This document shows, piece after piece, positions 1-62,430 of a DNA stretch of 64,000 nt. The DNA is taken from contig JALIGW010000003.1 of NCBI GenBank assembly GCA_023053685.1, positions 46,335,996 through 46,399,995 on the forward strand, in the 5' to 3' direction. The first letter of the stretch is position 1, and every line of letters starts with the position of its first letter. Source of the stretch: Diadophis punctatus similis (lineage: Eukaryota > Chordata > Lepidosauria > Squamata > Dipsadidae). The translations under genes and the position numbers were made by a program. Below the pieces are notes generated by a model. It was not told where the DNA came from. It did not search any database and saw nothing but the letters and a program-made list of their open reading frames with translations.

Positions 1-2163
1 GGTATGAGCAGGTCATATTGGGGTGAAGCCATACTGACTGCCAATTATTTAGTAAATAGGTTGTGGAGTTCATCCATTAATAATACTCCATATGCAATGC
101 TATATGGGAGAAAGCCTTCTCTAGCACATTTAAAAATATTTGGAAGTACTGCATGGGTACATATTCCAAAGGCAATCAGAAGAAAGGGACAACAAAAGGC
201 TAGAAAGCTCAGATTTGTGGGCTATGAGCCAGGCTCAAAAGGGTATCGCTTTAGCGATGGAAGTAAAAGGATAGTGATTTCAAGGTCTGCTAGTTTTGCA
301 GAACAAAATTGGAACAGAATTGATGCAAATTCTGAAAATGTCTCACTTAGTGATGGTGATCCACTTAGCGACGGTGATCCACTTAGTGACAATAACTCAT
401 GTAATGATGGTGAATCATTTACTGAAGGTGTCTATGTTCAGGGAGGAGAGTCTGAACAAGATATGAAGCCAGAAAAGCTTGAAACACAAGTACAGGCAAT
501 GCCACGTAGGTCAGAGCGTAGGAACAGAGGGGTTCCGCCAGACAGGTATTCTGCCAGTAAAGTTAAAGTGTGTAATGTGTGGTATGAGCCAAGAAACTAT
601 AAGGAAGTATTGGCATTAGCAAAAGTTGAACAAGAAAAGTGGAAGGAAGCCATGGATAAAGAGATGAAATCCATGGGAAATCATAAAGTGTTCACATCTG
701 TGACTTTGCCACAGGGTACCAAGGCTGTAGGATGTAAGTGGGTATATAAGAAAAAAGTATTACCCAATAATGAAGTACAGTATAAGGCAAGATTGGTGGC
801 ACAAGGTTTTTCTCAATTAAAGAATGTGCACTATGATGAGGTGTTCGCGCCAACTGTAAAAGCTGAGAGCATAAGACTAGCACTGGCATTAGCATCAGCA
901 TACAGGCATAGAATTTGGCATTTTGATATAACCACTGCATTCCTCAATGCTGAATTAGAGGAAGAAATTTATATGGTTCAAGCGCCAGGGTATGAAAATA
1001 AAATGCCTAACATGGTGTATAAATTGAACAAGGCCATTTATGGGCTGAAGCAGTCAGCCAGAAATTGGAATATCTGTTTAGATACTGCATTGAAAGGTCT
1101 TGGGTTCAAGAGTTGCAAAGCTGATGGTTGCATATACACTGGAAAGTTACAAGGTGGGAATTGTCTACTATTAGCATTTGTGGATGATCTTTGTTTCATT
1201 GCAAAGGATGCATCACAAGTTAAAGAATTTGCTAATAAGTTAGAAAAGAAATTTGAATTAAAGAATTTGGGAGAAATAAAGAATTATCTCGGTGTAGAGA
1301 TACAAAAAACTGAAAAAGGTGGTTATATTCTCAGTCAAAGGAGAAAAATTGAACAATTATTAGAGAAATATAACATGAAAGATTGTAATATTGCTCCTAC
1401 ACCTATGAGCACAGATTTTTACAATAGTTTGGGTGAGGACAAAAGTGAAGCCTGTGATCAGGAGATATATCACTCTGCAATAGGGAGTTTGTTATATCTG
1501 TCACAGTGGTCCAGACCAGACATAGCTTGTGCAGTGAGCATCTTAAGTCGCTTTACTGCTACACCTACAAAGTTGCATTGGATGGGTGTGAAAAGAATTC
1601 TCAGGTATTTGAAGGGAACTGTGAATTTGGGTCTTCAAATAAAGGTCACTGAAGAATTAAAATTGAAATGTTATGTTGATAGTGATTATGCAAATGATGT
1701 AAAAACCAGAAAATCTAATTCTGGAATTGTAATAATGTTTGGAGGGGCTTTAATTGGTTGGAAGTCCAGAAAACAAACAACGGTTGCTATTTCAACTGCG
1801 GAAGCAGAGTTTATTGCATTGTCTGAGTTATGTTCTGAAATAGTTTGGTATGTACAGTTGTTACAAGATTTAAATGTAAATGTAAATGAAGCTGTTACTG
1901 TTTATGAAGATAATGCTGCTTGTATAAAAATGGCAACAGGTGACAGAGTGAAGAACAGAAGTAAACATGTGGACATTAAGTATTGTAATGTCAGGGAAGC
2001 TGTAAAAGAAAAATTGATACGTTTACATCATTGTTCTTCAGAGGATAATTTAGCAGACATGATGACCAAACCATTGGGTGGCGTCCATTATAGGAAATGT
2101 TTAAATCCAATAGGTTTGATGTCTCTCCCAGTAATGAAGGGAGGAGTGTTGGAATATTCATGA
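1..2163 (+). CDS. copia pol, C-terminal 720 codons (integrase end, RT, RNase H)
   Basis: The frame is open from the first base of the window to a TGA inside the 3' LTR. It begins in the C-terminal part of integrase (WGEAILTANYLVNRLW). A low-complexity linker with repeated LSDGDP follows, then the copia-type reverse transcriptase (RVT_2) with GCKWVYKKK, FDITTAFLNAELEEEIYM and YGLKQSARNW. The catalytic box reads FVDD in place of the usual YVDD. The RNase H part has CYVDSDYANDVKTRKSNSG, STAEAEFIALSE and the family-typical SKHVDIKYCNVRE and LADMMTKPL. No stop or frameshift is visible in this part, so this copy looks recent. What lies upstream is unknown. Confidence 0.95.
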   Translation, partial: GMSRSYWGEAILTANYLVNRLWSSSINNTPYAMLYGRKPSLAHLKIFGSTAWVHIPKAIRRKGQQKARKLRFVGYEPGSKGYRFSDGSKRIVISRSASFAEQNWNRIDANSENVSLSDGDPLSDGDPLSDNNSCNDGESFTEGVYVQGGESEQDMKPEKLETQVQAMPRRSERRNRGVPPDRYSASKVKVCNVWYEPRNYKEVLALAKVEQEKWKEAMDKEMKSMGNHKVFTSVTLPQGTKAVGCKWVYKKKVLPNNEVQYKARLVAQGFSQLKNVHYDEVFAPTVKAESIRLALALASAYRHRIWHFDITTAFLNAELEEEIYMVQAPGYENKMPNMVYKLNKAIYGLKQSARNWNICLDTALKGLGFKSCKADGCIYTGKLQGGNCLLLAFVDDLCFIAKDASQVKEFANKLEKKFELKNLGEIKNYLGVEIQKTEKGGYILSQRRKIEQLLEKYNMKDCNIAPTPMSTDFYNSLGEDKSEACDQEIYHSAIGSLLYLSQWSRPDIACAVSILSRFTATPTKLHWMGVKRILRYLKGTVNLGLQIKVTEELKLKCYVDSDYANDVKTRKSNSGIVIMFGGALIGWKSRKQTTVAISTAEAEFIALSELCSEIVWYVQLLQDLNVNVNEAVTVYEDNAACIKMATGDRVKNRSKHVDIKYCNVREAVKEKLIRLHHCSSEDNLADMMTKPLGGVHYRKCLNPIGLMSLPVMKGGVLEYS
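2136..2146 (+). other. polypurine tract of copia copy A
   Basis: GAAGGGAGGAG lies immediately before the TGTTGG start of the 3' LTR. This is where a plus-strand primer is expected in LTR retrotransposons. The same tract occurs at the matching place in the second copy. Confidence 0.85.
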
Positions 2164-2412
2164 CTGGGAGAGCCATGTGATTGAGTCAGCCAATTGGGCT
2201 GAAGTGTTAATTGAGCATGTCCAGAAACTTAGCAAGAAGAAGGGTGTGGTTTACTCAGTCCACCATTAAAGCTTGCTGTGAAAACATCTCAACATGTGAT
2301 CTGAAACAAAGTGTGGTATTGTTAATGTTTTATTCTACTTATAAAGAAGTTATTTGAATCAGCAAAATGCAGTTATCTTTTGAAGCTTCTGATTTATTGC
2401 GTAACTCTGACA
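2147..2412 (+). repeat. 3' LTR of copia copy A
   Basis: 266 bp with TG...CA ends, matching in length and almost in sequence the two LTRs at 47554-47819 and 51849-52114. It contains a TATA-like CTTATAAAG in its second half. The pol frame runs 17 nt into it before stopping. Confidence 0.93.
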
Positions 2413-3235: not shown

Positions 3236-5201
3236 CAAAGATCCATCTCCTCCATTCTGTTTCTAATGACTCCAGGCTTCAGATTTTTCCACAAACAATT
3301 TGCAGAGTTGTCACTTTATACTAATGAGAAGTACTGATGAGGACTTGATTTTTTTGAGTTTTGACATTTTAACAACAACAAAAGGCATCATGGAAATATA
3401 TCAAGTCTTCCTCAGTAGGTCCGAAAAACTCACTACAGCACTTCCCAAAGGCTGGTACCATTTTACTGAGGGAAGCAGGAATAATTTCAGCATTTAATGG
3501 TGATGATAAAAAACAACACATTTGAAGGAGAGTTGAATTAATGCGCTGGAACTGTTTGAATTTATTTTGATTGAAATGGCAACTACTGTAAAGCTTTTTA
3601 GAGGAGGGGGGGGGAAATATAATTGCACAATTTCACTGAGCAAGTGCTATTCCTTTACTCCACTTAGATCAGATCCAAGGCAGACAGCTTATGTCAAGAA
3701 AAGATGAAATACCAAATGCTGCCTTTTGTTCCAAAATTCCGGTGTCATTTGTTCGGTTCAGTCAGTCACTTGGATCAACATAGTCCAATCAATCAATATA
3801 GTGATTTTGTAACCTAAAAGAATCTGTGACTAGATACCATCCAAAAGTAAATATTGAACGTATTTGTACTTGGGTTCCCAAGCACAAATGAGGATTTATT
3901 TGTATACTTAAGGCAAAATAGTTTATTTGTACAGTAATCTATAGACTGCCAACTTCACAAGGATTTGAGGTGGTTTTGATTCATGTTTATTTCATTCATA
4001 TAGCTGCCCATCTCACACACGTGATGCTAGGTGACTTGCTACAGGAATAATTAATAAAAGCAACATAGTAATCAGAAATAATTAGGAAGCCCGAGTACTC
4101 TTGATGGAATGTTTCAAGGCTTCCTAAAAAATCCAAAAGTGCTTTTACCTTGAATAGCCATGTGTTTTAAAGGGCAAGGGAAGTCACAGAGGTACATTGC
4201 CAAGCCACTACCTTATAACCTATGGGGTGGGCATTTTTTTTCTTAACGATTGCAGAGGGACATCTGAATATGCAGCAGAAATGGACTTGTGCATATCTGG
4301 ATGCAAGCCACACAGTGCTTTGGCACTATTTATATCCAGATAAAAACCAATAACCAATGCACTGTTTGCAACATTGTTAAATCCGTTACCCGTAAGTACC
4401 CGAAACCACCACATGTATTTCGGACCCGTTGAAGTTTCCAAGTCGTCTTCAAAACAACCCTATGCAGAGGATGTTACAGCAGTGTGTATGTGAATAGGAA
4501 TCATTGTTGTCTTGACATTCTGGTCCACGGTGGCCCATAATTGGCGCAATTTTTGTGATCTCCACCATGTTGATCTAGCAGAACCCATGAATCCAAGACA
4601 ACTCCCAAATCCGTAAGGATGCAATGTTCTCAAGAGCTAAGATCAGAGATAAAATGGAGCCAGAACCATTGCCAACTAACAGTAATTCCATTTTGCAGGG
4701 TTTTAATCTGAATGTATTTGAGCTAGAAGGCGCTTATAAACTCCAGGCCTTTTGTGGTAGCCCCAATTCAGTCTGCAGTGGCAAAACAAAGGATAAATCT
4801 AGATAGGAAATGTATTTGAAATAAAAGTCCTATCTGCCATGTGAGCAAGAGGAGCAAACAAGGATGTGAAAGGGAAGCGCTGATAAAACTGCAGCTTTTT
4901 ACTGGGAAGGAGAGAAGAGAAATTTCAATCCAAAGATGCTGGACGGGACCATTACGCTTTAAAATATTCAAAGAAAATTAAAACTTACTGTTCCATCCAA
5001 ACCATCAGTTTTTAATGCTTGATTACTCCATTTCTAGCCTGTTAATCAGTGTGGTAAGAATGTTTCCATTATTTGCCTAAGCTACATATACCTATATACA
5101 TACATTCTGAAAACCATTTGCGGGAGGGGGGGGAGAGCCTGAAAATATCACTCTACTCTCTTATCTCTAAGTGTCTGAAACCAGGTAATTTGCTCTTAAA
5201 G
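3236..5201. other. intergenic stretch, no feature recognised
   Basis: AT-rich DNA with short open frames that lack family motifs and codon bias. I see no exon, RNA gene or clear repeat boundary here. Confidence 0.5.
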
Positions 5202-5666
5202 CAGGTGTCAGCAACCTGCAGCTCCGGAGCCACATGCGGCTCTTTGGGCCCTCTGCTGTGGCTCCCTGTTGGGTGATCCTACCACTGGCTGGCCCCACCC
5301 CTCGCCCTCCCTTCCCAGTCACTCCTTGCCTGGCCTGAGAAGGTAAGAGCGACATTGGGGGATGGAGAAGCGGCTGGGGCAGAAACAGAAAGATAGAGGG
5401 GGGGGGAGAGAGAGACATAGACAGATACAAAGAGAGGGGGGAGAGAGGGAGAGAGATGTCAAAAGGGTTTTGTGGTTCCCGGTGTTTTTTAACAATCAGT
5501 TCTCTGCCCTAATGACCTGCTGGGTAGGTGTGGCTAGGGGGTCATGTGATTGGTGGAAGTGATGTCAAGTTGGCCACGCCCACCCAGGTTTTGTGGCTCC
5601 CGGTGTTTTCTTTTCTGTGGGAAACGGGTCCAAATGGCTCTTTGAGTGTTTAAGGTTGCAGACCCG
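5202..5666. mobile_element. hAT-type nonautonomous element with 8-bp TSD
   Basis: It begins CAGGTGTCAGCAACCTGCAG and ends GGTTGCAGACCCG, which are imperfect inverted termini of hAT style. The flanking duplication TCTTAAAG is exact (5194-5201 and 5667-5674). The interior includes a G/A-rich run near 5395-5455. No transposase is encoded. Confidence 0.85.
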
Positions 5667-11212: not shown

Positions 11213-40539
<29,327 letters not shown>

Positions 40540-40762
40540 CTGTAAAGACAATTGCAAATACATTTTAGTCCCTGCTCCTGTAGTTGACATTATTCAGCAA
40601 AAGCCCTTCCCTTTCTTCCAAGAAACTTTCTTCCTAGAAACTTATTTCTGGACACCATATTCCTCACAATCTTATTTCCTGTTAAATTTAATAGTTATAA
40701 TTTCCCAATAAAGTATATAAAATAACAGATAATATAACCCTTCTGGAGTTGATTCTCTAGAG

Positions 40763-43439: not shown

Positions 43440-44086
<647 letters not shown>

Positions 44087-47548: not shown

Positions 47549-47553
47549 ATTTA

Positions 47554-47819
47554 TGTCAGAGTTACGCAATAAATCAGAAGCTTCAAAAGATAACTGCATT
47601 TTGCTGATTCAAATAACTTCTTTATAAGTAGAATAAAACATTAACAATACCACACTTTGTTTCAGTTCACATGTTGAGATGTTTTCACAGCAAGCTTTAA
47701 TGGTGGACAGACTAAACCACACCCTTCTTCTTGCTAAGTTTCTGGACATGCTCAATTAACACTTCAGCCGGATTGGCTGACTCAATCACATGGCTCTCCC
47801 AGTCATGAATATTCCAACA
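47554..47819 (-). repeat. 3' LTR of copia copy B
   Basis: 266 bp, TG...CA ends. It differs from the 5' LTR at one base in the region after TTTGTTTCAG (T versus A). It carries a TATA-like CTTATAAAG (47628-47620) and ATTAAA (47701-47696) on the minus strand. Confidence 0.97.
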
Positions 47820-50800
47820 CTCCTCCCTTCATTACTGGGAGAGACATCAGACCTATTGGATTTAAACATTTCCTATAATGGACACCACCCAATGGTTTGG
47901 TCATCATGTCTGCTAAATTATCCTCTGAAGAACAATGATGTAAACGTATCAATTTTTCTTTTACAGCTTCCCTGACATTACAATACTTAATGTCCACATG
48001 TTTACTTCTGTTCTTCACTCTGTCACCTGTTGCCATTTTTATACAAGCAGCATTATCTTCATAAACAGTTACAGCTTCATTTACATTTACATTTAAATCT
48101 TGTAACAACTGTACATACCAAACTACTTCAGAACATAACTCAGACAATGCAATAAACTCTGCTTCAGCAGTTGAAATAGCAACCGTTGTTTGTTTTCTGG
48201 ACTTCCAACCAACTAAAGCCCCTCCAAACATTATTACAATTCCAGAATTAGACTTTCTGGTTTTTACATCATTTGCATAATCACTATCAACATAACATTT
48301 CAATTTTAATTCTTCAGTGACCTTTATTTGAAGACCCAAATTCACAGTTCCCTTCAAATACCTGAGAATTCTTTTCACACCCATCCAATGCAACTTTGTA
48401 GGTGTAGCAGTAAAGCGACTTAAGATGCTCACTGCACAAGCTATGTCTGGTCTGGACCACTGTGACAGATATAACAGACTCCCTATTGCAGAGTGATATA
48501 TCTCCTGATCACAGGCTTCACTTTTGTCCTCACCCAAACTATTGTAAAAATCTGTGCTCATAGGTGTAGGAGCAATATTACAATCTTTCATGTTATACTT
48601 CTCTAATAATTGTTCAATTTTTCTCCTTTGACTGAGAATATAACCACCTTTTTCAGTTTTTTGTATCTCTACACCGAGATAATTCTTTATTTCTCCCAAA
48701 TTCTTTAATTCAAATTTCTTTTCTAACTTATTAGCAAATTCTTTAACTTGTGATGCATCCTTTGCAATGAAACAAAGATCATCCACAAATGCTAATAGTA
48801 GAAAATTCCCACCTTTTAACTTTCCAGTGTATATGCAACCATCAGCTTTGCAACTCTTGAACCCAAGACCTTTCAATGCAGTATCTAAACAGATATTCCA
48901 ATTTCTGGCTGACTGCTTCAGCCCATAAATGGCCTTGTTCAATTTATACACCATGTTAGGTTTTTTATTTTCATACCCTGGCGCTTGAACCATATAAATT
49001 TCTTCCTCTAATTCAGCATTGAGAAATGCAGTGGTTATATCAAAATGCCAAATTCTATGCCTGTATGCTGATGCTAATGCCAGTGCTAGTCTTATGCTCT
49101 CACCTTTTACAGTTGGCGCGAACACCTCATCATAGTGCACATTCTTTAATTGAGAAAAACCTTGTGCCACCAATCTTGCCTTATACTGTACTTCATTATT
49201 GGGTAATACCTTTTTCTTATATACCCACTTACATCCTACAGCTTTCGTACCCTGTGGCAAAGTCATAGATGTGAACACTTCATGATCTCCCATGGATTTC
49301 ATCTCTTTATCCATGGCTTCCTTCCACTTTTCTTGTTCAACTTTTGCTAATGCCAATACTTCCTTATAGTTTCTTGGCTCATACCACACATTACAAACTT
49401 TAACTTTACTGGCAGAATACCTGTCTGGCGGAACCCCTCTGTTCCTACGCTCTGACCTACGTGGCATTGCCTGTACTTGTGTTTCAAGCTTTTCTGGCTT
49501 CATATCTTGTTCAGACTCTCCTCCCTGAACATAGACACCTTCAGAAAATGATTCACCATCATTAAATGAGTTATTGTCACTAAGTGGATCACCGTCACTA
49601 AGTGGATCACCGTCGCTAAGTGAGACATTTTCAGAATTTGCATCAATTCTGTTCCAATTTTGTTCTGCAAAACTAGCAGACCTTGAAATCACTATCCTTT
49701 TACTTCCATCGCTAAAGCGATACCCTTTTGAGCCTGGCTCATAGCCCACAAATCTGAGCTTTCTAGCCTTTTGTTGTCCCTTTCTTCTGATTGACTTTGG
49801 AATATGTACCCATGCAGTACTTCCAAATATTTTTAAATGTGCTAGAGAAGGCTTTCTCCCATATAGCATTGCATATGGAGTATTATTGATGGATGAACTC
49901 CACAGCCTATTAACTAAATAATTGGCAGTCAGTATGGCTTCACCCCAATATGACCTGCTCATACCAGAATCCTCCAGTAATGAGTCTTTCATTGTTTGCA
50001 AAACACCATTTCTCCTTTCAGCCACTCCGTTCTCTCCCGGTGTGTAAGGATTTGTGCGCCTGTGTCTTATTCCCAATTGTCTCAACCATTGTTGAAAATT
50101 TGTTGACATAAATTCAGAACCTCTGTCAGTTTGCAACTGACATACCTGTTGTCTGTACCTTCTCTCTACAAAGCTTAACCATTGCTTAAATTGCTGTAGC
50201 ACCTCTGTTTTACTCTTAAGTAAGTAGCAAAACCCAAACCTGCTGTAGTCATCCACAATGACCAGCACATACTTTGCTCCTCCCAAACTGGCTTGCATAG
50301 GCCCAATTAAATCAGCATGCACCAGTTCTAGAGCTTTTGTGGTTTGTCTTGTGCTAAACTTGCTCACTGGGAATGCTTTGGATTTCGATGCTTTGCATAC
50401 TGCACAATCCAAATATGCCTTACATCCCTTCAAATCTAATCCTTCTGCAAATTCTTTCATTTGTTGAACAACCTTAAAATTAGCATGACCAAGTCGTCTG
50501 TGCAGAAGATGAACACACGAATTGTGTTCTGCTACATTTTTAACTATCTGGGAACAATGTGGGACCTTTTGTCCCTGCAATACATAAAGATTATCCTCTT
50601 TTATGCCCTGTGCACAAACATTCCCATTTCTTTGGATGATACACTTCCCATTAACAAATGTGGTTTCATAACCTTGCTTGTCTAAACTAGACACACTTAA
50701 CAAATTATGCTCCATTTCAGGTACACATAACACATCAGTAAACCTGGAGTCCAAATATGGAATTTGCACATCACCTCTTCCAAAGATTTTAGCCTTTTGA

Positions 50801-50976
50801 CCATTGGCTAAGGCTACTTCTTCATGGTTTCCTGGGAAAAATCTGGAAAATAAGTCAGAATTATTAACAATTGTTTGACTAGCCCCACTGTCAATCAACC
50901 ATTTGTCTCTATTGTTATTATAACAAACTTTTGCAACTGCAATCTGTCCTTGCAAATAATGTCTCTTGTCTTGCAC
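47803..50976 (-). CDS. copia pol: protease, integrase, RT, RNase H
   Basis: About 1057 codons without a stop. Domains in order: aspartic protease (WLIDSGAS near residue 30), GAG-pre-integrase and zinc-binding HHCC (HRRLGH...DCAVCKASK, about 158-195), and the integrase core with its DDE residues in HADLIGP, QTDRGSEF and ENGVAERRN (about 220-325). The copia-type RT follows (FDITTAFLNAELEEEIYM; FVDD catalytic box, about 655-790), then RNase H (CYVDSDYAND, STAEAEF, SKHVDIKYCN). The listed start is a GTG with no special support. The frame continues upstream through a CCHC zinc knuckle to a TGA near 51170, so it is probably reached from gag rather than started independently. The frame ends inside the 3' LTR. 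Confidence 0.95.
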   Translation of the reverse strand: MQDKRHYLQGQIAVAKVCYNNNRDKWLIDSGASQTIVNNSDLFSRFFPGNHEEVALANGQKAKIFGRGDVQIPYLDSRFTDVLCVPEMEHNLLSVSSLDKQGYETTFVNGKCIIQRNGNVCAQGIKEDNLYVLQGQKVPHCSQIVKNVAEHNSCVHLLHRRLGHANFKVVQQMKEFAEGLDLKGCKAYLDCAVCKASKSKAFPVSKFSTRQTTKALELVHADLIGPMQASLGGAKYVLVIVDDYSRFGFCYLLKSKTEVLQQFKQWLSFVERRYRQQVCQLQTDRGSEFMSTNFQQWLRQLGIRHRRTNPYTPGENGVAERRNGVLQTMKDSLLEDSGMSRSYWGEAILTANYLVNRLWSSSINNTPYAMLYGRKPSLAHLKIFGSTAWVHIPKSIRRKGQQKARKLRFVGYEPGSKGYRFSDGSKRIVISRSASFAEQNWNRIDANSENVSLSDGDPLSDGDPLSDNNSFNDGESFSEGVYVQGGESEQDMKPEKLETQVQAMPRRSERRNRGVPPDRYSASKVKVCNVWYEPRNYKEVLALAKVEQEKWKEAMDKEMKSMGDHEVFTSMTLPQGTKAVGCKWVYKKKVLPNNEVQYKARLVAQGFSQLKNVHYDEVFAPTVKGESIRLALALASAYRHRIWHFDITTAFLNAELEEEIYMVQAPGYENKKPNMVYKLNKAIYGLKQSARNWNICLDTALKGLGFKSCKADGCIYTGKLKGGNFLLLAFVDDLCFIAKDASQVKEFANKLEKKFELKNLGEIKNYLGVEIQKTEKGGYILSQRRKIEQLLEKYNMKDCNIAPTPMSTDFYNSLGEDKSEACDQEIYHSAIGSLLYLSQWSRPDIACAVSILSRFTATPTKLHWMGVKRILRYLKGTVNLGLQIKVTEELKLKCYVDSDYANDVKTRKSNSGIVIMFGGALVGWKSRKQTTVAISTAEAEFIALSELCSEVVWYVQLLQDLNVNVNEAVTVYEDNAACIKMATGDRVKNRSKHVDIKYCNVREAVKEKLIRLHHCSSEDNLADMMTKPLGGVHYRKCLNPIGLMSLPVMKGGVLEYS
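47820..47830 (-). other. polypurine tract of copia copy B
   Basis: GAAGGGAGGAG on the minus strand, directly before the 3' LTR. Identical to the tract in copy A. Confidence 0.88.
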
Positions 50977-51731
50977 ATTTCTTCTCTGTGCACAGCTTTT
51001 CTGCAGATGATTGGTCTTTCCACAAATGAAACACGCTTTCTTAACTTGCTTGCAGAATTGTTGCTGTGTAACTTGATCTCTCCTGCCTCTGCTCTCCTCT
51101 TGTCTGCAGACACCTCGGCTGTTGCTAGAGATAGGCAGCCTGTGGAAAATTTTCCATCAGCATGGCTGAAAAGCCTTTTCTCATATTCATTCAATAAACA
51201 CGATTTCAAAGCCTCCAAATTCAAATCTGCTTCTGGCTTACTTTCAAAAATAGCTGATACAGTCTCCCAGCTCTGATCCAAACTGTTTAACACTAATAAA
51301 ACTTTTTGGGACTCTGGAAACTTTACTCCACGTTGCTCCAATTCTAGAAAATTAGACTGCATTTTCATTAAATGATCTTCCATAGAATCTCCTGTCTGCA
51401 AACTCATTCTGAAAAGCTTTCTTGAAAGTTGGACCACATTACACGCAGAAACATTGACATGTACTGCTCTCAATTTCTGCCATATCTCTTTTGCAGACTT
51501 TAATTCAGCTACATTTAAGAATTGATCATCCCCCAGACTTAAGAGAAGATAAGCCATAGCTTTGTCATGAGCCTTTTGATCTGCTGCTCCAAGCACTTGT
51601 GGGGGGTCTGCTACGATGTCCCATAATTCTTTTGCTTTCAAAAAACATTCCATTTTTGCAGCCCAAATTAAATAATTTTTCTTCCCCAATTTAGGTATTG
51701 GACTGTCTTTAAATTCCATAGCAGCAGCCAT
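50895..51731 (-). CDS. copia gag (frame-shifted relative to pol)
   Basis: 278 codons from ATG at 51731. The N-terminal part is a typical copia gag (DUF4219/UBN2 type): PIPKLGKKNYLIWAAKMECF, ELWDIVADPP, AYLLLSLGDDQFLNV and LKSCLLNEYEKRLF. The last 60 or so residues look out of frame. A proper zinc knuckle (CX2CX4HX4C, about 51030-50985) is read in the pol frame, one base back. Gag and pol therefore overlap by about 80 nt beyond the listed pol start, in a -1 relation. Either the family uses frameshifting or this copy has an indel. I cannot tell which from one copy. Confidence 0.88.
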   Translation of the reverse strand: MAAAMEFKDSPIPKLGKKNYLIWAAKMECFLKAKELWDIVADPPQVLGAADQKAHDKAMAYLLLSLGDDQFLNVAELKSAKEIWQKLRAVHVNVSACNVVQLSRKLFRMSLQTGDSMEDHLMKMQSNFLELEQRGVKFPESQKVLLVLNSLDQSWETVSAIFESKPEADLNLEALKSCLLNEYEKRLFSHADGKFSTGCLSLATAEVSADKRRAEAGEIKLHSNNSASKLRKRVSFVERPIICRKAVHREEMCKTRDIICKDRLQLQKFVIITIETNG

Positions 51732-51834
51732 CCTGCTTTACTTTTCTTCTCTGCCTGTTCCTTTAACAACACAGACAGCTTCTTATCAGCTTTAAATTAC
51801 AATGCAGTTTTTAACTTTACTTCTTGAGCGATTT

Positions 51835-51848
51835 CTGGGCCCATAACC
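51835..51848 (-). other. copia primer-binding site, complementary to initiator tRNA-Met anticodon arm
   Basis: Directly after the 5' LTR the minus strand reads GGTTATGGGCCCAG. This is the exact complement of 14 nt of the vertebrate initiator tRNA-Met (CTGGGCCCATAACC, the anticodon stem-loop), not of a tRNA 3' end. Drosophila copia primes in the same way from a 5' half-molecule of initiator tRNA-Met. Confidence 0.88.
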
Positions 51849-52114
51849 TGTCAGAGTTACGCAATAAATCAGAAGCTTCAAAAGATAACTGCATTTTGCT
51901 GATTCAAATAACTTCTTTATAAGTAGAATAAAACATTAACAATACCACACTTTGTTTCAGATCACATGTTGAGATGTTTTCACAGCAAGCTTTAATGGTG
52001 GACAGACTAAACCACACCCTTCTTCTTGCTAAGTTTCTGGACATGCTCAATTAACACTTCAGCCGGATTGGCTGACTCAATCACATGGCTCTCCCAGTCA
52101 TGAATATTCCAACA
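51849..52114 (-). repeat. 5' LTR of copia copy B
   Basis: 266 bp, TG...CA ends, one mismatch to the 3' LTR. TATA-like CTTATAAAG at 51923-51915 on the minus strand is a candidate core promoter. Confidence 0.97.
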
Positions 52115-52525
52115 ATTTATTTCAACTGACAATTGCTGATGTATTTCACAATCCAATTAAAATACTGATTTTAACTGAATCTATTAGGGAAAACCCCCCT
52201 GCCTTGTTAGTTTGCAGACGAGAGAGTATTCTAAGTTTATATTCATTTATTAAAACTGGATATATGTTACAGACTTGCACTGAGATTATAGGCTTTAACA
52301 TTTCTGCCATGCTAGAATCGATGAAGTTTGTGGATTTAGTTTTGCTGGGTTTTGTGGTATTTTATCGAAGGTGCTGCAGGATAACTTTTAAAGCACCTTT
52401 TGATATCCATAAAGGTGCTTTCAGTTAGAGGACTGAGGAGTTCTCAAAATTAAGATGGTGGAAGTACGATTGCATACCATTCTCTGGAAAAAGAAAAAGG
52501 AGGGCAGTTTGCAAAATCATTATAG

Positions 52526-53690: not shown

Positions 53691-53856
53691 AAATTGAATT
53701 TCACATCGCCATTTTTTTTAATTCTATCATTAGTATTAATAATCATTTGATTATACTGTCAGTTCACTGCTCAAGTTAAAAGATGTATTAGTCATTTCTA
53801 TAAATATCTGTGGAACATTAATAATGTTTACTCTTTATGCTTAAGTATTTTTGAAC

Positions 53857-54716
53857 TACCATATTTTTCGGAGTATAAGACACACCGGAGTATAAGACGC
53901 ACCTTAGTTTTTGGGGAGGAAAATAGGGGAAAACAATCTGCCTACCAGGTATTCATCCGGCTAGCATCCTTAGTCTGGTCAGCTTCAGCACATTATTTTA
54001 TCCCCTGGTTAGGACTTAAAAAAAACCTTCTGAGAGAGTAACAATGAAAGAGCATGCAAGCCAGTAAGAGCTGGGAAGATCGTTAGCATCTAGTTAGGGC
54101 TAGAAAAAAACTTATTCTGAGCAGCTTCAGCACATTATTTTATCCCCTGGTTAGGACTTAAAAAAACCTTCTTCTGAGAGAGTAACAATGAAAGAGCCTG
54201 CAAGCCAGTAAGAGCTGGGAAGATCGTTAGCACCTGGTTAGGGCTAGAAAACAACTTCTTTGGAGCAAGTAGAGCAATGAAAAAAAAACCTGCAAAGACT
54301 TAGGGCTGGAAAAACATTCTTTGGAGAGAGTAACAATGAAAAAGCCTGCAAGGTAAGAGCTGGGAAGATCTGTTAGCAATAGCAATAGCACTTTACTTAT
54401 ATACCGCTTCATAGTGCTTTACAGCACTCTCTAAGCGGTTTACAGAGTTCAGCATATTGCCCCCAACAATCTGGGTCCTCATTTTACCGACCTCGGAAGG
54501 ATGGAAGGCTGAGTCAACCTTGAGCCTGGTGAGATTTGAACAGCTGAACTGTTGAACTAGCAGTCAGCCTGCAGTAGCTGCATTTAACCACTGCACCACT
54601 TCAGCACCTAGTTAGGGCTGGGGGAAAAAGCTACATTTGAAGTATAAGACGCACCCAAATTTTCAGCCACTTTTAGGGAGGAAAAAGGTGCGTCTTATAC
54701 TCCAAAAAATACGGTA
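53857..54716. mobile_element. GTATAAGACGCACC element with nested SINE
   Basis: TACCATATTTTTCGGAGTAT at the left, inverted counterpart ending ATACGGTA at the right. It has an extra internal direct repeat (GCACATTATTTTATCCCCTG twice, about 53990 and 54130) compared with 13440-13929, and a minus-strand SINE at 54376-54604. Confidence 0.85.
54376..54604 (-). mobile_element. tRNA-derived SINE nested in a DNA element
   Basis: Reverse complement of the SINE: 3' end AAGCGGTATATAAG, body GGTTGACTCAGCCTTCCATC, B-box GTTCAAATCTC. The host element is empty at the same place in its relative at 13440-13929. Confidence 0.92.
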
Positions 54717-57692: not shown

Positions 57693-60600
57693 GGGAGGAG
57701 CCTCGGCGGAGATGGCGGTGAAAAATCTGACTCCGCATAAGATCTGAATTCTCTGCCGCCGTCTGCTCGAAGGAGACCACCCCCAGAGATCCTTTTTGTT
57801 CTGGGTGGAATTAGATCACAGCAGGTACTCAGCGATTGTGGCGGAATAACTGGCCGCACGCGGATAGTGCCGCTAAATTCTCCTTCAGGATTAACATCTG
57901 CGGAGACGGTCATCCATTTTGGAGTGGCAAACTGGAGAGGAACTTCGGGAGGAACTTCGGGAGGGGTTTCTTAGAAAACCATCACCAATTCGCTAAACTG
58001 CTAAATGGCGAAAAAGGGAGGAATTTGACACCAGCCTGCGGGGAGACTGCGAGCTCGGACGGCGTGCCTGTCATCGGCAGCGAGGAGCTTTGCTGTGCCC
58101 TGTCAGAGGACTTGGCTGAGCCTGGTTGGAGAGATCAGCTGTGGTTTGCGCGTTGGGCGCCGCTCTCCAGTTCTGGCCGGGAAGATCGATGGCGTTTTTG
58201 TGAGCGTCTTTGGAGCAGACCGACCAGGTGTGGGAGGCTATTGAGAGCTGTGTGGATTGCCAGGAGTTGGCCCTGCGTTCTGGGAGTGAGAACGGCGGGA
58301 GTGAGAACGGCGACTAATTAGATTCTTGACGCTGATTATGGAGATCGCCGCCATTTTCTCATGGCGGAGGCTTGCTTCCGAAAATTAGCCTCACTCTCTG
58401 ATACTCTAAGGAACGTTTAAAGAACGCTACAACCGCCACCATTACTGCCTGTTTTATTTTTCACCTGGGTGGTTTTGGTGGGTGTCTGACATTACGTTAA
58501 GGGCGCGGGAGTATTTCCCAAGCGCTACAACCTCCAATATCGCTAAATTGAACCAAGGGAGACTCTGGACACGAGGTTGCTTTCTGCCCCTTGGGACCTC
58601 CCGTTGTAGTTGCTGTCGAGGGGGTGTAGATATAGCTTGGGTGTTGACGTCTGTCTTTGGATGCCCGTAAGAACTTCTCTCTGGAGGGATCGCGAGAGTC
58701 CGCCATTGCTGCCTGCCTGTCATCTAGAAGGCAGTTTCTGGAAGGCATAGTGACTATAATTATTCCGGATGCTCTTTTCAACACCACCTTGGCTCCTGTG
58801 GACGTTTTTAGTCGCTTTATTGATTAAGGCAACCAAGACGAAGATGCTGACCCCCCCCTTGGCTAAAATTCGATCATGCACTGAGGGGTGTAAGACTTTA
58901 GACTTTCAAAGCCACCTTTGTGATCCTGCCACCTTTTTAGAATTTTTTAGAAACCGTTTTAAATTGTATCCTCCCCTCTGAGATGTGATATGAATGTGGG
59001 TGAATGTGGATAGAATGAGATGAGTGTTTGAGTATCAGTAAGCGTGTGAAATGGAAAATGGAAAAGCTAGGGACTGGGACTTTGCTCCCCCCCGCTGAGT
59101 GTAAAAACAGAAGTGGGTGGGGAGACCCGGCTACCCTTTCCTGTAAGAATGGTATGTATGGCCTGCAGGAAGGGAGGGAGACCAGCGGGGGAGGGGAGGG
59201 GGTCACTGGTGTAGGCGAGAGCCGGACCATCTCGGTCATAACGGGAAGAGGCAGATATGACGGGAGCAGAGGGGCGGGCCGCTCTCGGGGAATAAGACCT
59301 CGCTGTTTACAAGCGATCCCTTGTTCCGGCCCCTCCGACCCGGTTCCATCTTGCTCAACCCGGATACCTGGCAACCAGGGTTTTCAGGGCCCTGGGCTCA
59401 GGATGCTGCTGCTTAATGCCAGGTCAATTGTCAACAAAGCCCCCTTGATACGTGATTTAATCACAGAGGAGGGGGCAGACCTGGTGTGTGTTACCGAGAC
59501 CTGGCTGGGCCAGGAGGGGGGAGTAGCTCTCTCCGAGATATGCCCAGCCGGTTTCTCGGTGCAGCACCATTCTCGACCCCAGGGAAGGGGGGGAGGAGTG
59601 GCAATAATAACCCGCAAAAATCTGCATCCTCGTAGGATCCCTGCCCCGGAGATTGTCGGGTGTGAGACGCTCCTTTTGAAGTTGGACTTAGGGGTACAGG
59701 TGGGCCTTTTCTTGACGTACCTGCCTCCCAGCTGCGTAAGCAAGGCCCTGCCTGAGCTGCTCGAGGCAGTAGCCGGCTTGGCAGTTGAGTTCCCCAGGCT
59801 TATGGTGCTGGGGGACTTCAACTTGCCATCTGCTGGCGAAACCTCTGGGGCGGCTCAGGAGTTCATGGATTCCATGACAACCATGGACCTGACCCAAGTA
59901 ATCCAGGGTCCGACTCATGAGGGTGGTCACACGCTCGACCTAGTGTTTCTTTCGGGGCAGTGGAGAGATGATCTGAAGATAAGGGATATAGTCATCACCC
60001 CTCTGTCATGGTCAGATCATTTCCTACTGAGGTTGGATTTCGCAGCCCCATTCCTCCCCCGCAGGGAGGCGGGACCGACTAGGTGGTTCCGCCCCAGGCG
60101 CCTAATGGAACCGGAAGGATTCCAGAGGGAACTTGGGGAAATACCTGAAACCCTGGTACACAATTCGGCTGACTCCCTGGTGGCTGCTTGGAACACCGCA
60201 GCATCAGGGGCCCTAGACCGAATTGCGCCTAAGCGACCTCTCTATGGCAGTGGATCCCGGAAAGCTCCCTGGTTTACCGAGGAGCTCCGGGAGATGAAAC
60301 GCCAGAAGAGACGTCTAGAACGCCGCTGGAGGGCCAGAAAAACCGAGTCTGATCGAACACTATTAAGAATTTACATCAGATCTTATTTAGTGGCGATAAG
60401 GGCGGCAAAACGATCCTATTTTTCCGCTCTTATTGCGTCCGCAGATTCCCGCCCGGCCGCCTTGTTTAGGGTGACGCGCTCCCTCCTTGCAAAAGGGGGG
60501 AGCGAGGAACACTTACAAGGCAGAGCTGAGGAATTCGCTGAGTTTCTGTCGGATAAAGTCGCTCAGATTCGGTCAAACCTGGACTCTGGCTGGGCAGAGT

Positions 60601-62430
60601 CCATTGAGTTGACAGGGGCTAGTCCTAGTCCATCTTTATGGGAGGAGTTTGGGCCTGTTTCTCCTGAGGATGTGGACAGGGCTGTGGGAGCGATGGGTAC
60701 CTCCACCTGTTTATTGGACCCGTGCCCCTCCTGGCTGGTCTCGACCAGCAGGGAGGTGGCACGCGGCTGGATCCAGGCGGTGGTCACCGCTTCTTTGAGA
60801 GAGGGATCCGTACCGCAGTCGTTAAAAGCTGCGGTGGTGCGACCCCTCCTGAAGAAGCCTTCCCTGGATCCAGCTGACTTGAAGAACTATCGTCCGGTCT
60901 CCAACTTACCTTTTTTAGGGAAAGTTGTGGAGAAGGTGGTGGTTACTCAGCTTCTGCAGCTCCTGGATGAAACAGATCATCTAGATCCTTACCAGTCGGG
61001 CTTCAGGCGCGGCTACAGTACAGAAACTGCCTTGGTCGCTCTGATGGATGATCTCTGGCGGGCCCGGGATGGGGGGAACTCCTCCATCCTGGTGCTACTT
61101 GACCTCTCAGCGGCTTTCGATACTATCGACCATGGTATCCTTCTGCATCGTCTCAGCGAGTTGGGAGTGGGAGGCACCGTTTTGCGGTGGTTCTCCTCTT
61201 ATCTCGCTGATAGGATGCAGTCGGTGCTGGCAGGGGGGCAGAGGTCGTCCCCTAGGCCCCTATTATGTGGGGTGCCTCAGGGGTCGGTTCTCTCGCCCAT
61301 CCTGTTCAACATCTACATGAAACCGCTGGGTGAGATCATTCGCAGACATGGGGTGTGTTTCCATCAGTACGCTGATGACACCCAGCTGTACATTACCACC
61401 CCGTCTGACTTCAGTGAGGCAGTTGATGTAATGTGCCGGTGCCTGGACGACGTTAGGATCTGGATGGGGAGGAACAGACTCAGACTTAATCCCGACAAGA
61501 CTGAGTGGCTGTGGATATTGCCTCCTAAGGATCATGACAACTGCCCCTCCTTGTTCCTTGAGGGAGCGAAACTGACTCCCTCGGACCGGGTCCGCAACTT
61601 GGGGGTCCTCCTAGATCCACAGCTAAAATTGGACCATCATCTTTCTGCTGTGGCTAGGGGGGCCTTTGCACAGGTTCGCCTGGTGCACCAGTTGCGGCCA
61701 TATTTGGAGAAGGAGGCTCTACTCACGGTCACTCATGCCCTTGTCACCTCTCGTTTGGACTACTGCAATGCGCTCTACATGGGGCTACCCTTGAAGAGTA
61801 TCCGGAGACTTCAGCTGGTGCAAAATGCGGCTGCGCGTGCTGTGGTGGGTGTGCCAAGGTACACCCACGTGACATCGATACTCCGCCAGCTGCATTGGTT
61901 GCCCATCGGTCTCCGGGTCCAATTCAAGGTGTTGATCACCATCTTTAAAGCCCTTCATGGCTTAGGACCAGGTTATCTACGGGACCGCATTCTGCCTCAT
62001 ACTTCCCTCCGACCGGTTAGGGCCCACAGAGTTGGCCTCCTCCAGGTCCCGTCGGCCAAGCAATGCCGGCTGGCGGGCCCAAGGGGGAGAGCCTTCTCTG
62101 TGGCTGGCCCCGCTCTCTGGAACCAACTTCCACCAGAGACCCGAACTATCCCCACTCTGCTGGCCTTCCGAAAAGCCGTTAAGACATGGCTCTTCCTGCA
62201 GGCGGGGGGTAGAGCTTAATTCACTCGAGCTCACCCCCCAAGTATGTATGATGTTGAATGGTTGTTGATTTCTTATATTGTGTTTTAATTTTTATATTGT
62301 TTTAATTACTATTTTAGATTTTGGTTGTTCTTGTATTTTTCACTGATGTACGCCGCCCTGAGTCCTTAGGGAGTTGGGCGGCATATAAGAATTCCAAAAT
62401 AAATAAATAAAATAAATAAATAAATATCCA
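57693..62430 (+). mobile_element. near full-length CR1 LINE
   Basis: Starts near GGGGAGGAGCCTCGGCGGAG and GATGGCGG, a GC-rich 5' region of about 1.3 kb. The single long endonuclease/RT frame follows (59028-62219), then a 3' UTR ending GCCGCCCTGAGTCCTTAGGG and GGCGGCATATAAGAATTC with an AAAT tail. The 5' border is a judgement from the base-composition change. Other CR1 3' ends in the window (21952, 31443, 37150) are truncated relatives. Confidence 0.88.
59028..62219 (+). CDS. CR1 ORF2: AP endonuclease and reverse transcriptase
   Basis: 1063 codons with no stop. The AP-type endonuclease starts near residue 124 (LRMLLLNARSIVNKAPLIRD) with its catalytic blocks VTETWL, LGDFNLP, HTLDLVFLSG and SWSDHFLL. 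RT blocks follow: YRPVSNLPFLGKVVEKVV, GFRRGYSTETALVALMDDL, LLDLSAAFDTIDHGILL, PQGSVLSPILFNIYM and YADDTQLY, and a CR1-type C-terminus (SAKQCRLAGPRGRAFSVAGP, FRKAVKTWLFLQ). All expected catalytic residues are present. The start is uncertain: the first 120 residues have no domain I know and may be untranslated or part of a longer protein. Drives target-primed retrotransposition. Confidence 0.92.
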   Translation: MSISKRVKWKMEKLGTGTLLPPAECKNRSGWGDPATLSCKNGMYGLQEGRETSGGGEGVTGVGESRTISVITGRGRYDGSRGAGRSRGIRPRCLQAIPCSGPSDPVPSCSTRIPGNQGFQGPGLRMLLLNARSIVNKAPLIRDLITEEGADLVCVTETWLGQEGGVALSEICPAGFSVQHHSRPQGRGGGVAIITRKNLHPRRIPAPEIVGCETLLLKLDLGVQVGLFLTYLPPSCVSKALPELLEAVAGLAVEFPRLMVLGDFNLPSAGETSGAAQEFMDSMTTMDLTQVIQGPTHEGGHTLDLVFLSGQWRDDLKIRDIVITPLSWSDHFLLRLDFAAPFLPRREAGPTRWFRPRRLMEPEGFQRELGEIPETLVHNSADSLVAAWNTAASGALDRIAPKRPLYGSGSRKAPWFTEELREMKRQKRRLERRWRARKTESDRTLLRIYIRSYLVAIRAAKRSYFSALIASADSRPAALFRVTRSLLAKGGSEEHLQGRAEEFAEFLSDKVAQIRSNLDSGWAESIELTGASPSPSLWEEFGPVSPEDVDRAVGAMGTSTCLLDPCPSWLVSTSREVARGWIQAVVTASLREGSVPQSLKAAVVRPLLKKPSLDPADLKNYRPVSNLPFLGKVVEKVVVTQLLQLLDETDHLDPYQSGFRRGYSTETALVALMDDLWRARDGGNSSILVLLDLSAAFDTIDHGILLHRLSELGVGGTVLRWFSSYLADRMQSVLAGGQRSSPRPLLCGVPQGSVLSPILFNIYMKPLGEIIRRHGVCFHQYADDTQLYITTPSDFSEAVDVMCRCLDDVRIWMGRNRLRLNPDKTEWLWILPPKDHDNCPSLFLEGAKLTPSDRVRNLGVLLDPQLKLDHHLSAVARGAFAQVRLVHQLRPYLEKEALLTVTHALVTSRLDYCNALYMGLPLKSIRRLQLVQNAAARAVVGVPRYTHVTSILRQLHWLPIGLRVQFKVLITIFKALHGLGPGYLRDRILPHTSLRPVRAHRVGLLQVPSAKQCRLAGPRGRAFSVAGPALWNQLPPETRTIPTLLAFRKAVKTWLFLQAGGRA

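Follow-up and report, generated by a model that had tools for sequence, protein, structure and literature searches.

The 64,000-nucleotide stretch of the Diadophis punctatus similis genome analysed here (assembly GCA_023053685.1, contig JALIGW010000003.1, positions 46,335,996 to 46,399,995; hereafter the window) carries a Ty1/copia long terminal repeat (LTR) retrotransposon in intron 1 of SORT1. With a probability of about 0.95, we read it as the recent insertion of a family resident in snakes. A reading of the sequence alone had already proposed a complete, very young copia element in a vertebrate intron, and most of its description was borne out: the two 266-bp LTRs with one difference lie exactly at the coordinates proposed, the ATTTA duplication is exact, the primer-binding site (PBS) and polypurine tract (PPT) were found directly beside the 5' and 3' LTRs, and Pfam confirms gag and a pol with integrase before reverse transcriptase (RT). 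The element is laid out as follows:

47554..52114, minus strand: whole Ty1/copia element, 4,561 bp, in sense orientation relative to SORT1
51849..52114, minus strand: 5' LTR, 266 bp
47554..47819, minus strand: 3' LTR, 266 bp, with a single mismatch to the 5' LTR (47666/51961)
47549..47553, no strand: target-site duplication ATTTA, left
52115..52119, no strand: target-site duplication ATTTA, right
51835..51848, minus strand: PBS GGTTATGGGCCCAG, 14 bases, directly 3' of the 5' LTR
47820..47827, minus strand: PPT GGGAGGAG, directly 5' of the 3' LTR
50895..51731, minus strand: gag frame, 278 codons, copia capsid
50992..51033, minus strand: gag zinc knuckle CX2CX4HX4C, here in the pol frame
47803..50976, minus strand: pol open frame, counted from the first listed start codon; open back to 51156
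50881..50892, minus strand: aspartic protease motif DSGA
50014..50526, minus strand: integrase, HHCC-like motif and D,D(35)E core (rve)
48556..49281, minus strand: reverse transcriptase RVT_2 with FVDD (Pfam and motif)
47983..48288, minus strand: RNase H motifs (D, E, D, H), by motif reading, RNase H having no Pfam match

On the element strand the LTRs run TG...CA, the element beginning with TGTTG and finishing with GACA, and the pol stop codon falls within the 3' LTR. Direct LTRs with these ends and a short target duplication, a tRNA PBS accompanied by a PPT, RVT_2 together with a copia-type gag, and integrase upstream of RT are all as in Ty1/copia elements (Pseudoviridae). The Pfam order is copia gag PF14223 (E-value 2.6e-26), Pol_BBD, gag_pre-integrs, rve, SH3_retrovirus and RVT_2 (9.1e-73); the zinc knuckle, DSGA, D,D(35)E, FVDD and RNase H motifs can be read in the sequence. 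A Ty3/gypsy element, a BEL element or an endogenous retrovirus was rejected, given that these need RT before integrase and the order here is the opposite. In a search of solved structures, the top match of the integrase part was 7z0h_W, listed as Integrase, which we take to be the Ty1 integrase, and the RT/RNase H part had no match at E 0.01. Rfam and tRNA scans across the window returned no matches.

The host gene lies on the minus strand, with SORT1 exons running from ~40,540 down to 11,471. Two exons bracket the element:

40477..40540, minus strand: SORT1 exon 2 (approximate)
~69020..69225 in window numbering (L010 ~5020-5225), minus strand: SORT1 exon 1, beyond the window end

Because these exons stand on either side, the element sits in intron 1 and reads in the same direction as the gene. 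Once joined, the SORT1 exons have their best match (94%) in a 27-member sortilin cluster that carries the corn snake's name; lizard clusters follow at 86%.

The RT is 81-82% identical to UniRef entries from the coral snakes Micrurus paraensis and M. lemniscatus (178 and 120 residues; both entries are fragments) and at most 62% identical to the other matches listed. In an RT tree of 36 sequences the family groups with other snake copia: it joins M. paraensis, M. lemniscatus and one further entry in a group of six rows (support 99/88), and an enclosing group of eight rows (100/99) includes M. surinamensis at 43% identity. A first tree, built without the Micrurus entries, had placed the family on a long branch. 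Our literature search found no paper combining Micrurus, copia and retrotransposon. In a search of 5.8 billion proteins, those of the best 120 of 717 matches that bear a name come from insects, a spider, plants and algae, which could speak for contamination by plant, insect or fungal DNA. However, these matches to long proteins are at most 46% identical (in the 119 of the 120 rows with sufficient coverage), and the near-identity to plant, insect or fungal elements that the sequence-only reading had set out as a sign of contamination was looked for and not seen among the matches listed. Instead, the closest sequences are those of coral snakes, which also group with the family, the copy lies inside a snake gene with exons on both sides, and the same genome holds 944 junctions of LTR and PBS. 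On these grounds contamination was rejected, and we regard it as vanishingly improbable.

These junctions were counted in the whole assembly (1.78 Gb, 419 contigs) as exact matches to the 18 bases spanning LTR and PBS, 490 forward and 454 reverse, the reversed control giving 0. The 5' LTR sequence recurs at full score in at least 12 other places, counted in the 40 candidates that were scored out of 1,476. We studied 37 copies: the window copy, 20 from the first 22 rows of a list of RT matches (two rows with low contig coordinates were skipped), a second copy in the window (copy B), 5 picked because both of their LTRs equal the 5' LTR of the window copy, and 10 from the opening part of the junction list, which all lie on contig C1. 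Both sources carry a bias, since score orders the RT list and only copies with an intact 5' junction enter the other. Exact 5-bp target duplications flank all 37 copies (27/27 and 10/10). No substitution separates the two LTRs in 25 of the 37 (15 of 21, all 5 picked for LTR identity and 5 of 10, the window copy not being among them), and pair alignments over all 37 copies hold 24 LTR substitutions in total. A palindromic target preference, RANTY, which fitted 7 of 27 copies (background 2%, the pattern having been picked post hoc), was discarded, as it fitted none of the 10 new copies by eye.

Over 4,024 internal positions, the window copy has 6 private changes when set against 21 other copies, 4 against 26 and 3 against 35, in agreement with its single LTR difference. 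All 6 of the changes private against 21 copies alter pol residues, which is as expected after insertion, although the number is small. If substitutions accumulate at roughly 2.4e-9 per site and year, the window insertion would be less than 1 My old, with a wide error. The insertion is recent, as had been supposed, and the family looks large and young, with many copies having open frames; it looks recently active and may still be so. The earlier reading had also suspected such activity, but it overlooked the second copy at 1-2412 and understated the size of the family.

Several observations weigh against this reading. LTRs of 266 bp date poorly, so that one difference is compatible with about 0 to several million years. 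The RT matches in which open frames were counted are the best 150 of 3,885 candidates and, being ranked by RT score, are tilted toward intact copies. Among the 10 junction-list copies, 5 are open over at least 1,331 codons and 5 are not, one has 9 differences in its LTR pair, and one has lost about 1.2 kb. In addition, current activity would have to be judged from a single assembly of one individual.

The word 'complete' holds for the structure of the window copy but not for its coding capacity. Its gag and pol are in different frames, and the shift between them falls where ~60 bp have been deleted, at a 16-bp repeat near 51153. The window copy measures 4,561 bp, compared with 4,601-4,665 bp for the other copies (35 measured, without large deletion). 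Some retroelements separate gag from pol by frameshifting, so the frame change could in principle be programmed and the window copy functional. However, the deletion at the break is absent from copy B, from six units of a tandem array described below and from 20 compared copies; moreover, 88 of the best 150 RT matches have one continuous frame of 1,320-1,360 codons. We rejected a programmed frameshift for these two reasons and consider it highly improbable. In-frame gag-pol coding is thus lost from the window copy and open in its relatives, and the break concerns autonomy rather than family membership, since a family can include individual copies that are defective. Other copies do have an unbroken frame. 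Two RT matches, at G000:C1:91913082 and C154:8462159, lie in open frames of 2,896 and 2,967 codons, more than twice the usual length in the family.

The PBS GGTTATGGGCCCAG is complementary to positions 26-39 of initiator tRNA-Met, in the anticodon arm, and it is identical in all 26 other family copies tested. A 25-base stretch of that anticodon arm has one exact match in the host genome, at locus L041, where all 53 readable bases equal the vertebrate initiator tRNA-Met gene and include the complement of the PBS; the other 19 bases are N. ARAGORN made no tRNA call at L041, where the tRNA is interrupted by N. Because the PBS matches an internal position of the tRNA, it suggests that the element is primed by the 5' half of initiator tRNA-Met. 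Drosophila copia is primed in this way too, its PBS likewise pairing within the anticodon arm of initiator tRNA-Met and not with the 3' end.

The anatomy is consistent with the following life cycle. An LTR-driven RNA would be translated, in intact copies, into one gag-pro-pol protein, and two RNAs would be co-packaged in virus-like particles. Initiator tRNA-Met, or its 5' half, would prime cDNA synthesis at the anticodon-arm PBS, and integrase would insert the cDNA, making the 5-bp duplication. The window copy would now rely on intact relatives, because no in-frame gag-pol is possible from it, and may have done so already when it moved. Frequent recombination would keep the copies of the family near linkage equilibrium.

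This last step has its counterpart in the structure of the family, whose copies are fine mosaics. Among 27 copies, each lies 26-62 internal positions from its nearest neighbour while having few private changes (median 4.5 over 26 copies); of the 9,870 pairs formed by 141 two-state shared sites, 5,434 are in four-gamete conflict. Mean linkage (r2) is 0.178 between sites at most 50 bp apart, 0.061 for 50-100 bp, 0.049 for 100-200 bp and 0.039-0.044 at greater distances, where about 1/26 = 0.038 corresponds to no linkage. Internal linkage thus drops to the no-linkage level by ~100-200 bp. Recurrent mutation at hot sites might also produce such conflicts, and 14 sites in the 27 copies are indeed multiallelic; however, it would not account for a decay with distance that none of 500 position shuffles matched and that persists in 46 transversion sites alone and in 121 sites without CpG context. 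The decay also recurs in a separately chosen sample of 9 of the 10 junction-list copies (L045, with a large internal deletion, was dropped), where r2 is 0.365 up to 50 bp and 0.109-0.133 at longer distances, with 0.125 for no linkage and again 0 of 500 shuffles as extreme. With all 36 copies pooled, r2 is 0.142 for sites up to 50 bp apart and 0.029-0.032 for those more than 200 bp apart, against 0.029 for no linkage. Recurrent mutation is therefore a very unlikely source of the mosaics.

The LTRs bear on when the mixing took place. In an anchored count over 27 copies, in which gaps and shifts count as differences, an average of 0.8 differences separates the LTR pair within a copy (21 differences in all; 20 of the 27 copies have none), whereas an average of 8.5 (range 0-20) separates the 5' LTRs of one copy and another. 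The mixing thus dates from before insertion. Gene conversion among copies already inserted in the chromosomes would also be expected to leave short mosaic tracts, and a single assembly cannot show the mechanism. Yet if such conversion were frequent, the LTR pair within a copy should be dissimilar, the opposite of what is seen, and we think it unlikely to be the cause. Instead, we read the mosaicism as recombination during reverse transcription, which would make the family an almost freely mixing pool. Shared pol sites comprise 56 synonymous, 45 nonsynonymous and 0 stop changes, compared with 36, 59 and 2 among singletons, as expected if working copies transmit the shared variants. Taken together, we lean toward the view that this family of ~900 copies behaves as a sexual population, in which co-packaging and template switching would bring about linkage equilibrium beyond ~200 bp, shared variants would be under purifying selection, no single copy would be the master, and broken copies could return sequence to the pool.

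Recent copia activity in snakes has been published before, and the window element is of an ordinary kind for a snake. The rarity in vertebrates asserted by the sequence-only reading was overstated: PMC8872380 puts copia at 0.47-1.65% of six snake assemblies and describes it as expanded and expressed in hydrophiines and almost inactive in Naja. Likewise, PMC10709897 reports expansion of Gypsy and Copia in sea snakes with a peak at 2.5-5 My. In the corn snake, as reported in PMC11948899 and PMC4657000, a 5,832-bp Copia underlies two colour mutations (OCA2 amelanistic, CLCN2 stripe) and has 85 copies longer than 5 kb at more than 95% identity. That element resembles ours in being a Ty1/copia element of a snake, in its intronic insertion and in its young family; it differs in length (5,832 versus 4,561 bp, the comparison being by length and description only), and its insertions cause a phenotype, whereas the window element is known from sequence alone. 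Copia-6 of Anolis (Repbase, cited in PMC4657000) is another squamate copia. With 944 exact junctions in 1.78 Gb, and with identical LTRs and open frames in many of the copies sampled, Ty1/copia is neither rare nor old in this vertebrate genome, and related insertions have given visible mutations in the corn snake (PMC11948899).

The closest parallel to the linkage result comes from Arabidopsis ONSEN, also of the Ty1/copia type. Recombination among members of that LTR family occurs at a high rate, according to PMC5668417; there it is experimental, tied to transposition bursts and mostly pairwise, whereas in the snake family it is deduced from linkage among standing copies. No report of comparable recombination in vertebrate copia was found in the titles and abstract openings of the papers listed. 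The linkage result might be new to specialists; it draws on 36 copies from a single assembly and on our reading that the mixing takes place during reverse transcription. With linkage this close to zero, the family would lend itself to measuring the frequency of recombination in LTR retrotransposons, which to our knowledge has been studied mostly in plants and yeast. Models with a master copy presume clonal descent and would need care for such a family.

Further copies of the family were seen, one of them in the window:

1..2412, plus strand: copy B, truncated by the window start; 3' LTR at 2147-2412

Copy B is 98.5% identical to the window element across these 2,412 bases and lies past the last SORT1 exon found. 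In its entirety (L009:2789-7412) it has identical LTRs and is flanked by the duplication AATAT, and its open frame spans 1,332 codons. Elsewhere, at G000:C46 ~20195550-20221932 (L013-L015), six units of the same copia form a tandem array of 26,383 bp, five of 4,353 bp and one of 4,354 bp, in which units of equal length differ by 0-2 bases; seven LTRs are shared, and TATTA duplications flank the array as a whole. It may have arisen either by insertion of a multimer or by expansion in place. Two same-strand junctions of LTR and PBS at G000:C1:156931562 and 156935911, spaced by 4,349 bp, are possibly a second LTR-sharing tandem.

The remaining features of the window are of other kinds. Long AT, ATTCT and AAAT microsatellites lie at 12076-12454, 17018-17139, 37638-37780 and 43451-43567; AATAG and other 5-mer microsatellites are described for colubroid snakes in PMC6050309, in whose main text the word copia does not occur. 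Dispersed repeat pairs, 92-96% alike, are found at 26958-27257 and 43563-43862 and at 13431-13819 and 53848-54378. An open frame of 1,065 codons at 59022-62216, with endonuclease and RVT_1 domains, is apparently an intact LINE, of the CR1/L2 sort by eye.

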